Of a DNA stretch of 33,871 nucleotides, positions 2,982-18,298 are shown piece by piece. The position numbers were made by a program, and so were the translations under genes. Origin of the DNA: Bacteroidota bacterium (GTDB taxonomy: Bacteria > Bacteroidota > Bacteroidia > NS11-12g > UBA955); contig CANFXY010000015.1 of assembly GCA_947451105.1 (NCBI GenBank), positions 1 through 33,871 on the forward strand, in the 5' to 3' direction. The notes beneath the pieces were generated by a model. It worked only from the letters and a program-made list of their open reading frames with translations, was not told the DNA's origin and made no database searches. The number at the start of each line of letters is the position of its first letter. Positions within the stretch are counted from its first letter, which is position 1.

Positions 2982-5256
2982 TTCGTTTGGTTTTTAATTG
3001 GTGAAAAAGAGAATAAATCTGACTATTCACGTAGTCATTTCTTTTGTATTTCATGTTTAATCGATTGCTGCTAACATATATAATTTTGCCGGATTCAATA
3101 TCAAAAACTACAGAAGATAGATAAAGTCTATGTTTTTTATGCAGTTGAGCATATAAATATAATGGGAACACAGGGAAGGCAATTGCACTGTAAACAAAGG
3201 CTATGGCATTGAATTCTTGGTTTTCGATGGTGTATGTTATGCCTGAAATGCAAATTTTAGAGCAAGTTTTTTCTTTTGTAATATTTGTAGCCTCTCGTGA
3301 ATTAAAGAGCTCTAAATCTGAAGCTGAGTTGTTGATTCTCTCAGTAAGCCATTCCATTATGATGGCGTATTGGTTCATGGTTTCTGTGCTAAGATGTTCT
3401 TTATCTAATAAATTTAAAGCTTGCGCATTGATGCCATTTAGTTGTGCCATTTCCATAAATTTATTGGAAAGTATTAACTCTTGTTGTTCGTTAAATAGTA
3501 GGTTTTGTTTTGTTTCCCTACCATAAATTGTTTTACTAAATGATGGGTTAATAATGATTAAAGAATCTATTCCGCCAGCAGATCCAAATTTCTTTTGTTT
3601 TCTCCAATCCTTTCTATCTGAAAAGACGCTAAATTCTTCCTCTTTTTTTACTTCCTCATCTTTATCCCTAAATTTATTATATGAAGCTTTAAATTGTTCT
3701 TTAAATTCTTTGTTTTTGAAAAATTCAACAAATGCATACTGATAATATTGTTTGAAATTGCTTGTTGAGCTTTCTTCGTCTACTTCCGCATTCTCTTGCT
3801 CTTGTTTTTTCTTTTTGAGCTTCAACTTATCTACCTTACTAAGCCCTGAAGTGTTTACATTGTTGGCTGTGTCAATTTTTGAAATGGTGTCTTTTTGCTC
3901 TTTAAATTTACTTAAACTAAAGCTGCTGTTTTTGAATAGGTCATCACAGGCCAATTCAAAAAGTTTTTTTGCAAAAGAATCATTCTTGTTGTTTTGATAG
4001 GCTTTCCATGTTTCTCTAATGCTTAAGATACTAAGTTCATCCGCATTTAATTTATTAAAGAAAAATGAAACGCTATAATAAGCCCCCTCATCTGTTTGCT
4101 TAAATTCTTCGTTTTTGCTGTTTTCGTCTGAATTTGAATTATTTTTTGCTTTCTTCGCTTTAGCATAAATACAGTATGCTGTTACAATAGTTGAGAAGTT
4201 GGTATCATGGTATATATTCCTATATAAATAAGACAAATAATACGCTTTTTTATATTGTGCGTGGTTGAATAAAATATAGAAAAGTTCTATTCTAGCTTGT
4301 TGTTGAATTGATTTAAAATAGTCTTCTCCCAAAACATAAAGCGCTCCATCTTTTTCTTCATCTTCAAGAATGGATTCAACTTTTGTTTTTCTTTTTCTGA
4401 TATTAGGATGGGTTGATTCTTCATCATCTTCAGCCTCATCAGCGCTGATTTCTTTGCCTTTTTTAGGTAAATAATAGACTGGAAATTTATATGAACTGTC
4501 TTGGAACTCTTTTATACTCCATTCAATTTCATCATATGGTAAATATGAGAACAACAACATATCAAAGCTGCTCAATGCTGCTTGTTTGTTGTAGGGTGTT
4601 TTCAGGTACAGTTTGACCCCTTCAACATCCGCTTCAAATTCGTTGTCTTTGGAATAACTATAAATTTCTTGTATGCGTTCATCAAAATCTAAGACTTTAA
4701 ATTTACCTTTTCCTTCTAAAACATCATTCTTCCTTTTGTAACTTTCTAAGCTATGCTTTTGGGTGTAGTGTGAAATTTCATGGCATAGGATATACGCCAG
4801 TTGTGCTTCGTTTTCCAGCTGACTAACTAGTCCAACGGTGACGAAAATTATTCCTTGATTGGTAGAAAAGGCATTGACACTGTATGATTTTAAAACATAA
4901 AATCTTAACTCTTTTCTAAGCTTAGGATTCTTTTCTAAAACTTTGTCAGCAACTTTATTAATATATATACTAAGGGCGTCGCCATATAGCACTTTGCCAC
5001 TGAATAGGATTTCGTCGATACTGAAGTTTGAGTTAACAGCAAATTCGTTTTCTAGTCTTTTTTCGGTTCGGGAAATATTCTTTTTAGATATTTTGCTTTT
5101 GTCGGTCTGAACCTTTTCTCCACTTAATTTTAAGAAATCATCGGGAATTTCTCCCGCACATCTCAAAGCATGGTATTGGATTTGGTTTTGACTTTGTACG
5201 GAGACGAAAATAAACAGGTAAAAACAAAGAATAATTATTCTCTTTATTAGTTTCAT
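2974..5256 (-). CDS. M48-family metallopeptidase with long C-terminal extension
   Basis: HExxH motif in LCHEISHYTQKHS and downstream E in NEFEADVEGVKLY. ORF is open to 5328, but a signal peptide begins at ATG 5256 (MKLIKRIIILCFYLFIFVSVQSQ). Confidence 0.8.
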   Translation of the reverse strand: MKLIKRIIILCFYLFIFVSVQSQNQIQYHALRCAGEIPDDFLKLSGEKVQTDKSKISKKNISRTEKRLENEFAVNSNFSIDEILFSGKVLYGDALSIYINKVADKVLEKNPKLRKELRFYVLKSYSVNAFSTNQGIIFVTVGLVSQLENEAQLAYILCHEISHYTQKHSLESYKRKNDVLEGKGKFKVLDFDERIQEIYSYSKDNEFEADVEGVKLYLKTPYNKQAALSSFDMLLFSYLPYDEIEWSIKEFQDSSYKFPVYYLPKKGKEISADEAEDDEESTHPNIRKRKTKVESILEDEEKDGALYVLGEDYFKSIQQQARIELFYILFNHAQYKKAYYLSYLYRNIYHDTNFSTIVTAYCIYAKAKKAKNNSNSDENSKNEEFKQTDEGAYYSVSFFFNKLNADELSILSIRETWKAYQNNKNDSFAKKLFELACDDLFKNSSFSLSKFKEQKDTISKIDTANNVNTSGLSKVDKLKLKKKKQEQENAEVDEESSTSNFKQYYQYAFVEFFKNKEFKEQFKASYNKFRDKDEEVKKEEEFSVFSDRKDWRKQKKFGSAGGIDSLIIINPSFSKTIYGRETKQNLLFNEQQELILSNKFMEMAQLNGINAQALNLLDKEHLSTETMNQYAIIMEWLTERINNSASDLELFNSREATNITKEKTCSKICISGITYTIENQEFNAIAFVYSAIAFPVFPLYLYAQLHKKHRLYLSSVVFDIESGKIIYVSSNRLNMKYKRNDYVNSQIYSLFHQLKTKRND

Positions 5257-7086: not shown

Positions 7087-8301
7087 ATGTTAAACCTGCC
7101 AATATACTTGGATAACAATGCTACCACGCCAATGGACCCTAGGGTTTTGGAAGCAATGTTGCCATATTTTATCGAAAATTTTGGAAATGCTGCGAGTAGA
7201 AACCACGCGTTTGGATGGAAAGCCGAAGAAGCCGTAGATTATGCTAGAGAGCAAATTGCATCTTTGATTAACGCTGATTCTAAAGAAATAATTATTACCA
7301 GTGGTGCAACAGAGTCAAACAACTTAGCATTGAAAGGTGTTTTTGAAATGTATGCTGAAAAAGGCAATCATTTTATCACAGTTGAGACAGAGCACAAGGC
7401 GATTTTAGATACCTGTAAGCACCTCGAGAAATTGGGCGCTGAAGTTACTTATTTACAAGCTGCTGAAGATGGATTAATAACAGTTGAGCAAGTTGCGGCT
7501 GCGATTAAACCAAATACTGTCTTAGTTACTGTGATGTATGCAAACAACGAGATTGGAGTTATTCAGCCAATAAAAGAAATTACAGCTTTGTGCAAAAGCA
7601 AAGGGATATTGTTTCATACAGATGCCACGCAAGCAGTTGGTAAGATAAAAGTGGATGTTATTGCTGATGGTATAGACATGATGAGTTTTTCTGGCCATAA
7701 AATGTATGGACCGAAAGGCGTAGGCGTTTTATATGTGAGAAGAAAGAATCCAAGAGTAAAAGTTACAGCACAAATGGATGGCGGCGGACATGAAAGAGGC
7801 ATGAGAAGTGGTACTTTGAATGTACCTAGCATTGTTGGTCTTGGAAAAGCGTGTGAGTTATGCCGCTTAGAAATGGATGTTGATACCGCAAGGATTAGCA
7901 AAATGAGAGATAGATTAGAACAGGAATTGCTCGTTATTGAAGAATCTTATATCAACGGAAATACAGAACACAGACTGCCACATGTGAGCAATATGTCATT
8001 CAAGTATGTCGAAGGCGAAGGCTTAATCATGGGCGTTAAAAATATTGCTGTTTCTTCAGGCTCAGCTTGTACAAGTGCCAGTTTGGAGCCTAGCTATGTG
8101 TTAAAAGCTTTGGGATTAGATGATGAGTTGGCGCATTCTTCATTGCGGTTTGGATTGAGCCGTTTTACAACTGATGAGGAAATAGACTATGCGATTAACC
8201 ACGTAAAAGAAGCGGTAAATAAGTTAAGAGAAATGAGCCCATTATGGGAAATGTTTAAGGAAGGAATTGATCTGAAAACAATTCAATGGGCTGAGCACTA
8301 A
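7087..8301 (+). CDS. iscS: Cysteine desulfurase, IscS type
   Basis: [20 protein letters not shown]..., PLP Lys motif [16 protein letters not shown], active-site loop [21 protein letters not shown]. Confidence 0.95.
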
Positions 8302-16179: not shown

Positions 16180-16210
16180 AAAAACCGTCAGCGATTAGCA
16201 GACGGTTTTT
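16180..16210. terminator. Bidirectional intrinsic terminator
   Basis: AAAAACCGTC-N11-GACGGTTTTT between the M1 gene (+) and H1-like gene (-). Confidence 0.85.
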
Positions 16211-16232: not shown

Positions 16233-16586
16233 TTACTTTTTAGCTGATTTTTTAGCTTTCGCTTTAGGAGCAGCTTTTTTAGCTTTTGCTTTAGGCGCAG
16301 CTTTAGCCTTTGGAGCAGCTTTCGCTTTTGCTTTAGGAGCAGCCTTTGCTTTAGGAGCAGCTTTAGCTTTAGCCTTTGGAGCGGCTTTCGCTTTAGGAGC
16401 AGCTTTCGCTTTTGCTTTAGGAGCGGCTTTAGCCTTTGGAGCAGCTTTCGCTTTCGCTTTAGGAGCAGCTTTTGCTTTAGGAGCAGCTTTAGCTTTAGCC
16501 TTTGGAGCAGCTTTAGCTTTTGCTTTTGCTTTCGGTGCTGCTTTTGTAGCTTTTGCTTTTGCAGCTGGTTTTTTTGATGTTGCCAT
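16233..16586 (-). CDS. Lysine/alanine/proline-rich histone H1-like low-complexity protein
   Basis: 117 aa: 44 Lys, 54 Ala, 14 Pro, no acidic or aromatic residues. Core is (AAPKAKAK-AAPKAK)x5. Resembles eukaryotic H1 tails, Chlamydia Hc2 and Bordetella/Pseudomonas AKP-repeat proteins. Confidence 0.8.
   Translation of the reverse strand: MATSKKPAAKAKATKAAPKAKAKAKAAPKAKAKAAPKAKAAPKAKAKAAPKAKAAPKAKAKAAPKAKAAPKAKAKAAPKAKAAPKAKAKAAPKAKAAPKAKAKKAAPKAKAKKSAKK
16257..16511 (-). repeat. Two-level tandem repeat inside the H1-like gene (42-bp units; two ~126-bp blocks 16257-16385 and 16386-16511)
   Basis: Aligned by eye. The blocks differ by 6 substitutions plus one extra Lys codon; all 6 substitutions are synonymous. 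Confidence 0.88.
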
Positions 16587-16612
16587 ATTTATAAATATTA
16601 AATTGGGTTTTT

Positions 16613-16996
16613 TTATTTGTTTAGATCTGCGTGCATATCACCATAATCAATGGTGATTTCTTCACCTGCTTTTATGTTTTTTAATGCCTTGTAAATCATT
16701 ACGCCGTCTTTTATTTTTTTTATGTAATCTGCATTCGGTTTTACTGAATGGTTGTACAAAGATCCAAAACCTAAAACGATGGCAACATTTTTTTTACTGG
16801 TATTCCAAACGAATGTATAGTTTTCTAAAATGTGTCCAACCAAAGCTTGATGTTCTTTATAACTCAACTCGATTACAGGGCAAATTTCAATAACATCACC
16901 TTTCTTTAAAACTTTAGATGTAAACACACCGCGACCCTTGTGTCCTGCATTGGATACAAATAAATTTGTATTGCTAATATTATACTCCTTTTTCAC
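16613..16996 (-). CDS. SET-domain protein-lysine N-methyltransferase (minimal SET)
   Basis: SET motifs in order: GHKGRGVFTSKVLKKGDVIE, GFGSLYNHSVKPNADY, IKAGEEITIDYGD. Confidence 0.87.
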   Translation of the reverse strand: MKKEYNISNTNLFVSNAGHKGRGVFTSKVLKKGDVIEICPVIELSYKEHQALVGHILENYTFVWNTSKKNVAIVLGFGSLYNHSVKPNADYIKKIKDGVMIYKALKNIKAGEEITIDYGDMHADLNK

Positions 16997-17014: not shown

Positions 17015-17022
17015 CAAAAATA
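17015..17022 (-). promoter_or_regulatory. -7 box TATTTTTG upstream of the SET/H1-like unit
   Basis: Plus strand CAAAAATA 18 nt before SET ATG. None seen in the 26-bp SET/H1 gap. Confidence 0.45.
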
Positions 17023-17195: not shown

Positions 17196-17711
17196 CTAAA
17201 AACTATTATTTACGTTTTTAACCATTACAAAATCGTTCATCAAGTATGATTCTCCAATATCGAAATCTTCAACAGATTCGATTGTAAATCCATTTTTAAA
17301 ATAGAAATTTATTGCCTTGAAATTTTGGCGATTTACTGTTAGTCTTATTTTGTAGTTATTGACTTCTTGTGTGACCTTAATTTCATTTTCTATTGCTTGT
17401 ATTACGAATGTGCCAACACTTCTTCTATGCTGCTCTGGTAGAAGATAGAATTTATGAATAAAGTAAATTCCATTGTGATCTTTACTTAATGACAAGAAGC
17501 CTAGAACTTCTGATTCAAATTTTACGAAATAAAAAATTTGACCATTTAGGATTTGTGTTTTTAATGAATCATTTGAATAAAATTTATTCATCATGTATTC
17601 AATTTGATCCATAGTTATAATTTCTATATAATATTTCTTCCAAATCAATTCAGCCAGTTCAGTAATTTTTGAAAGCTCTTCCTCTTTTGTTTTCACCAAT
17701 TTTATTTCCAT
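17196..17711 (-). CDS. GNAT-family N-acetyltransferase
   Basis: FVKFESEVLGFLSLSKDHNGIYFIHKFYLLPEQHRRSVGTFVIQAIE...INFYFKNGF; GNAT fold with a degenerate Q/RxxGxG (RRSVG). Confidence 0.75.
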   Translation of the reverse strand: MEIKLVKTKEEELSKITELAELIWKKYYIEIITMDQIEYMMNKFYSNDSLKTQILNGQIFYFVKFESEVLGFLSLSKDHNGIYFIHKFYLLPEQHRRSVGTFVIQAIENEIKVTQEVNNYKIRLTVNRQNFKAINFYFKNGFTIESVEDFDIGESYLMNDFVMVKNVNNSF

Positions 17712-17839: not shown

Positions 17840-18298
17840 ATGAATAAGGTAGAGTGTAAATTGTTGGAGTTTGGATCTGAGAACTATAAAAAAAGTATTG
17901 ATTTAAGAAGACAGGTGTTAAGAAAACCTTTAGGATTGGATTTTACTTCTGATGATTTAATTACTGAACATGATCAGTTTCATTTTGCATTGTTTTACAA
18001 CAATGAATTGCAAGCAATACTTTTGTTAAAGACGATGAAAGACATTAATCCAGGGGTTTTAAAGATGAGGCAAGTTGCTGTTAATCCTGAATTTCAAAGC
18101 AAAGGATTCGGCAGTATTTTGGTAAAATTCTCTGAACATTGGGCAATCGAAAGTGGGTATAAGTCCTTCGAATTACATGCTCGAATTACAGCAGTAGAAT
18201 TCTATAAGAAGTTAAATTACGAAGAAATTGGAAGAGAATTTTTAGAAGTAAATATACCTCACATTAAAATGATTAAAAATCTAATTAGCGAAAGATAA
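17840..18298 (+). CDS. GNAT-family N-acetyltransferase
   Basis: LKMRQVAVNPEFQSKGFGSILVKFSEHWAIESGYKSFELHARITAVEFYKKLNYEEIG; intact QxxGxG. Confidence 0.85.
   Translation: MNKVECKLLEFGSENYKKSIDLRRQVLRKPLGLDFTSDDLITEHDQFHFALFYNNELQAILLLKTMKDINPGVLKMRQVAVNPEFQSKGFGSILVKFSEHWAIESGYKSFELHARITAVEFYKKLNYEEIGREFLEVNIPHIKMIKNLISER

Follow-up and report, generated by a model that had tools for sequence, protein, structure and literature searches.

Two small genes lying side by side in the window, which is the whole 33,871-nucleotide stretch of DNA analysed here, raise the question of whether a non-pathogenic member of the Bacteroidota methylates a nucleoid protein of its own. The idea of bacterial self-chromatin being regulated by lysine methylation rests on few in vitro cases, mostly from pathogens or archaea, and a conserved unit that places a candidate substrate beside the enzyme makes the question directly testable with two small proteins. 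The upstream gene specifies a predicted SET-domain lysine methyltransferase (SET-A) and the downstream gene a lysine/alanine/proline protein (AKP). The first-pass annotation had described them as two minus-strand ORFs, a 127-aa SET protein with three ordered motifs and a 117-aa K/A/P protein, 26 bp apart; both the coordinates and the motifs were right (Table 1).

Table 1. Coordinates of the SET-A/AKP locus in the window and of the tandem-SET loci discussed in the text
Feature	Position	Strand	Basis
Terminator hairpin 3' of AKP, bidirectional, shared with convergent M1 peptidase gene	16180-16210	.	Fold z=-4.7 and -4.9
AKP, Lys/Ala/Pro protein, 117 aa, ATG start, net charge +44, presumably disordered	16233-16586	-	Composition and orthologues
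SET-A/AKP gap, 26 bp, genus-conserved AKP leader (core ACCCAATTTWAAT...ATAAAT directly before ATG)	16587-16612	-	Genus comparison
SET-A, SET-domain protein lysine methyltransferase (predicted), 127 aa, GTG start	16613-16996	-	Pfam SET, genus alignment, AlphaFold2 model and fold matches
Bacteroidota-type -7 box TATTTTTG upstream of SET-A	17015-17022	-	Motif TAnnTTTG
Chitinophagaceae-type tandem-SET loci L127, L133, L140, L144, L150, L153	about 3160-4420 in each		

The SET-A and AKP genes

The SET-A ORF carries GRGVF, YNHSVKPNA and GEEITIDYGD in that order, and the Pfam profile PF00856 covers the protein full-length (profile positions 1-105 of 105) with 61.2 bits against a cut-off of 22.4 (E=1.4e-16). 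Its SAM-site GxG motif (K20-G21-R22-G23), NH motif (N82-H83) and catalytic tyrosine (Y118) are invariant across the genus and near-invariant over 80 relatives; in the alignment of the 14 genus SET-A proteins KGRGVF, NH and EITIDYG do not vary. The AlphaFold2 model has a pLDDT of 90.5, the last residues being modelled poorly, and the nearest solved folds are Schizosaccharomyces pombe Set7 (TM 0.83) and the chlorovirus vSET (TM 0.75), which are the best PDB matches by sequence as well as by fold. Further PDB matches are to Suv4-20, SET8 and MLL, all of them histone lysine methyltransferases. SET-A comprises one SET domain, with neither a pre-SET nor a cysteine-rich post-SET part; no post-SET segment was found at its C-terminus, and no signal peptide or additional domain within its 127 aa. 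Judged by sequence and model it is a complete minimal SET domain of the vSET/Set7 type and, by class, an enzyme of the histone-methyltransferase type whose catalysis is predicted. The Pfam score and the two nearest folds bear out the original assignment of a real SET domain of the lysine-methyltransferase type. Like PBCV-1 vSET (PDB 3kma) and S. pombe Set7 (PDB 5h6z), SET-A is a single minimal SET domain; the substrates of those two enzymes are eukaryotic histone H3, and SET-A is ~30-34% identical to them in the fold alignment. A second genomic SET gene, SET-B, is a divergent paralogue (L073 = G000:C81, SET at 7537-7854) which is present in 10 of the 17 genus genomes, and no AKP gene was found beside it at G000:C81.

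AKP consists of 38% K, 46% A and 12% P, with no acidic, aromatic or Cys residues. Searched against Pfam and NCBIfam it gives no hit at E<=0.1, neither to an H1, Hc1 or Hc2 model nor to any other family. Its Lys/Ala/Pro composition resembles that of the H1 C-terminal tail, and AKP is H1-like in composition only; the term used at first pass stands in that sense. A likeness between its TKAAPK and TKAARK, the histone H3K27 site, was dismissed as a likely effect of composition.

The AKP proteins of the window and of a second species (G010) are identical (0 amino-acid changes), and the 24 nucleotide substitutions between the genes are all at third positions and all synonymous. Among random changes 27% would be expected to be synonymous, giving P~2e-14 if the substitutions are independent, and since exchange between repeat units likewise yields synonymous change this test is supporting and not decisive. 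Between the SET-A genes of the same two species 22 codons differ, 17 of them synonymously. On these sequence comparisons coding constraint appears to act on both SET-A and AKP.

Over the 14 genus genomes the gap between the two genes measures 24-48 bp, and the leader core is recognisable in most. A TAnnTTTG box stands 22-27 bases before the SET-A start in 10 of 14 genus loci, no -7 box was found in the SET-A/AKP gap, and a GC-rich hairpin followed by a T-run occurs at the same position in other genus loci as the terminator of the window. Given a -7 box before SET-A, none in the gap and a terminator after AKP, the two genes are likely co-transcribed as a two-gene operon. All three signals had been pointed out previously and were found again, and the view that co-transcription is likely agrees with them and with the tight conservation of the pair.

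Conservation of the pair within the genus

The genus sample consists of 17 genomes, environmental MAGs of uncultured Bacteroidia, and SET-A was found in 14 of these. Adjacency in relatives had been suggested as a check on the pairing, and within the genus it was confirmed: the order SET-A to AKP and the short gap recur at 13 of 13 intact loci, and at the fourteenth (G016) a contig ends inside AKP and another contig begins with the end of AKP, presumably of the same gene. The pair is kept wherever the locus is visible (14/14 genomes), with SET identity down to 67%, and its recurrence at the 13 intact loci and the contig-cut one argues that the pairing is not due to chance. The drafts without SET-A (G003, G005 and G007) are 82-85% complete and are missing a well-conserved nearby gene too; as the whole neighbourhood is absent from these drafts, their apparent lack of SET-A is uninformative.

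The AKP orthologues, which lie immediately 3' of SET-A in 13 genomes and are split in the fourteenth, vary from 59 to 126 aa. In 13 of 13 species AKP is in frame and devoid of acidic or aromatic residues, and its start region, C-terminus, leader and terminator are conserved in the genus. Matches to the repeated (APKAKA) DNA pattern were obtained in 15 of 70 family genomes, all 15 belonging to this genus and the matches falling mainly in the AKP gene; no (APKAKA)n arrays were found by this search in the other 13 genera of the family. Tails of ribosomal protein L20 or of RsfS account for the lone match in G005 and for a few isolated additional ones. A family-wide search for SETs in the other genera returned just two, in G022 and G464; the two are divergent and lack AKP.

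The flanks of the pair are less constant. Upstream of SET-A there is a GNAT gene in many genus loci, a purQ-like gene in G004, G006, G011 and G014, and unrelated genes in G001, G002 and G016; downstream of AKP the M1 peptidase gene is retained except in G016, where xerD comes next. Because the upstream genes vary and the downstream gene of G016 differs, flank synteny alone does not explain retention of the pair, and the unit retained through the flank changes is SET-A plus AKP. In the window two GNAT acetyltransferase genes lie just upstream of SET-A (17196-17711 on the minus strand and 17840-18298 on the plus strand), an arrangement kept at roughly half of the loci in the genus.

SET genes outside the genus

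Relatives of SET-A at 35-50% identity are widespread, occurring in Saprospiraceae, Chitinophagaceae, Algoriphagus and several candidate phyla. In a tree of 83 rows the genus SETs constitute one clade with modest base support (93/53), and the Algoriphagus SET is the sister of the genus SET-A clade (98/97 for both together). Since the genus SETs form one clade, the SET-A/AKP pair probably arose in a single old event in the genus. A scan of ~135 SET loci outside the genus, in Bacteroidota and further phyla, looked for K/A/P genes and found no AKP-type gene adjoining SET, and this SET group has no recurrent neighbour across most lineages. Most relatives of SET-A are without a lysine-rich neighbour, which suggests that in other lineages enzymes of this group act on different substrates. 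The candidate "bacterial chromatin-modification unit" of the first-pass annotation therefore survives as a pair kept within this genus and, given the ~135 outside loci without an AKP-type neighbour, not as a general rule.

Lysine-rich partners of other kinds do occur, and a looser scan brought out two such pairings. At both loci of Algoriphagus, a cultured genus, a hydrophilic lysine-rich protein of 94-97 aa and no known family starts 5-6 bp after SET (L090:4373-4657, L091:4372-4665), and at six Chitinophagaceae-type loci (Table 1) a lysine-rich protein of 86-138 aa with a signal peptide, possibly exported, is encoded immediately before two tandem SETs. These partners are unrelated to AKP. Counted post hoc, with thresholds set after the data were seen, lysine-rich neighbours came to 7/98 against 3/237 control genes (p=0.008). 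Two of the three hits in the control set turn out to be those SET partners again, just two lineages contribute, and we regard the enrichment as a lead only.

Searches of plasmids, phages and viral contigs gave only distant SETs (26-51% identity, matches often partial), so there is no sign of the SET-A/AKP pair being mobile. SET genes were seen in the huge uncultured phages LR756501.1 (735 kb) and LR745208.1 (485 kb), and the 19-kb plasmid LC810154.1 has two SET places. One Bacteroidia SET protein (L185:1348-2022), which has a post-SET motif, carries its own Lys/Ala/Pro H1-like tail at its end.

Candidate substrates of SET-A

The most probable reading, with chances that we judge about even, is that SET-A methylates AKP, thereby tuning a nucleoid-binding polycation. 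SET-A would transfer methyl groups from SAM to lysines, as a minimal enzyme of the vSET/Set7 type, and AKP would serve as its dedicated substrate; AKP itself would be a disordered polycation that coats or compacts DNA, and perhaps RNA, in the manner of the histone H1 tail. The target lysines would lie in the A-K-A and A-P-K repeats, where methylation would leave the charge unchanged, remove hydrogen-bond donors and add bulk, and by this means the cell could tune the DNA affinity, condensation or turnover of AKP. As the charge of lysine is left in place, DNA binding may be little affected. Action of SET-A on AKP is favoured by retention of the pair through changes at its flanks, by the restriction of the arrays to this genus, by the operon signals, by the histone methyltransferases nearest to SET-A, by the precedents given below and by the lysine-rich protein that closely follows the Algoriphagus sister SET. 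Against it weigh the probable single origin of the pair, the lack of a post-SET segment and the many proteins of the genus with similar lysine tails, and the linkage of the genes points to co-expression, not to catalysis.

The cpnSET protein of Chlamydia pneumoniae reportedly binds and methylates the H1-like Hc1 (Murata et al. 2007, reviewed in PMC3980110), and cpnSET with Hc1/Hc2 resembles the present pair in combining a bacterial SET with a lysine-rich H1-like protein. The host of cpnSET is an obligate intracellular pathogen, whereas the genus carrying SET-A/AKP belongs to the non-pathogen Bacteroidota; linkage of the cpnSET and Hc1 genes is not mentioned in that review, whereas the SET-A and AKP genes are linked, and AKP is a purer K/A/P repeat than Hc1/Hc2. 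Go1-SET of Methanosarcina mazei methylates the chromosomal protein MC1-alpha in vitro (Manzur and Zhou 2005, reviewed in PMC3980110) and, as proposed here for SET-A, is a prokaryotic SET with a chromosomal protein for its substrate, although Go1-SET is archaeal and MC1 is folded. AKP shares with AlgP and further H1-like proteins of bacteria (PMC9239181) the character of a low-complexity Lys/Ala/Pro polycation and the lack of a globular H1 domain; a SET neighbour of AlgP is not reported in PMC9239181, and the repeats prevent a judgement of sequence relationship between AlgP and AKP. In the open-access literature we found no paper on a SET/H1-like gene pair in Bacteroidetes, and a conserved two-gene SET/AKP unit in non-pathogen Bacteroidota appears to be new.

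Several other explanations of the locus have to be weighed. SET-A may have an unrelated substrate, such as a ribosomal or stress protein, and AKP may be co-transcribed with it yet serve a separate function, for example RNA or polyphosphate binding. The wide distribution of this SET group without an AKP-type neighbour, or a recurrent one in most lineages, is consistent with this, as is the action of the H1-like AlgP on polyphosphate granule spacing (PMC9239181), but the pair survives changes on both flanks and the sister-clade SET of Algoriphagus also has a lysine-rich protein just downstream, and we consider the explanation possible though doubtful. A role like that proposed for NUE and other nucleomodulins, in which SET-A would be secreted or injected and would target chromatin in a eukaryotic host or predator, is highly improbable. 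Effectors exist among other bacterial SETs (PMC3980110, PMC2904774) and the closest solved relatives of SET-A act on eukaryotic histones; SET-A, however, has no signal peptide or extra domain and is coupled to the gene for a bacterial polycation, the genus is one of environmental MAGs, and nothing in the window suggests secretion. We give next to no credence to AKP as a simple-repeat expansion behind SET-A yielding no functional protein: its repeat number varies widely, and exchange between its repeat units could produce purely synonymous differences, yet in all 13 species it has kept its frame and its lack of acidic and aromatic residues, and both ends of the gene, the leader and the terminator are conserved.

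The remaining explanation concerns other lysine tails of the genus, which are rival or additional candidate substrates of SET-A. The C-terminus of DNA topoisomerase I (TopA) is (KA)n-rich in all 16 genus genomes that yielded the protein (L273-L288, the window's genome being L285), with 1-6 AKA steps per tail (median 4-5; G008 is weak, with one step), whereas 13 relatives outside the genus have KK-type tails with 0-1 AKA steps. That TopA can end in a lysine-rich tail is known from elsewhere (PMC7398561). APKAKA is also present in some of the L20, THX and RsfS tails, which are mixed lysine tails; L20 of the genus has an additional C-terminal tail of ~70 aa, and the THX and RsfS tails are lysine-rich in some members (L229-L238, L226 and L224). 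SET-A might be a writer for this whole class of tails, with AKP its extreme member and the TopA (KA)n tail, perhaps L20, THX and RsfS too, also or mainly methylated. The genus-specific AKA richness of TopA, the shared APKAKA motif and the many equivalent sites on low-complexity tails favour such a writer. We nevertheless think it unlikely: the L20 tails mix acidic with basic residues and are nothing unusual among Bacteroidota, the TopA tail is also present in G003, G005 and G007, where SET-A was not found (though these assemblies lack the SET region), and the TopA, L20, THX and RsfS genes have no physical link to SET-A. A broader proposal, to which we give a rather low probability, is that bacterial vSET-type enzymes repeatedly gain dedicated lysine-rich disordered partners encoded alongside them, with a nucleoid polycation as the partner here and genus-wide (KA)n tails, that of TopA among them, as targets of the enzyme; if true, a non-pathogenic bacterium would have its own equivalent of histone-tail methylation. 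Beside AKP, the TopA (KA)n tail found in the same genus offers a second candidate target, one tied to DNA supercoiling.
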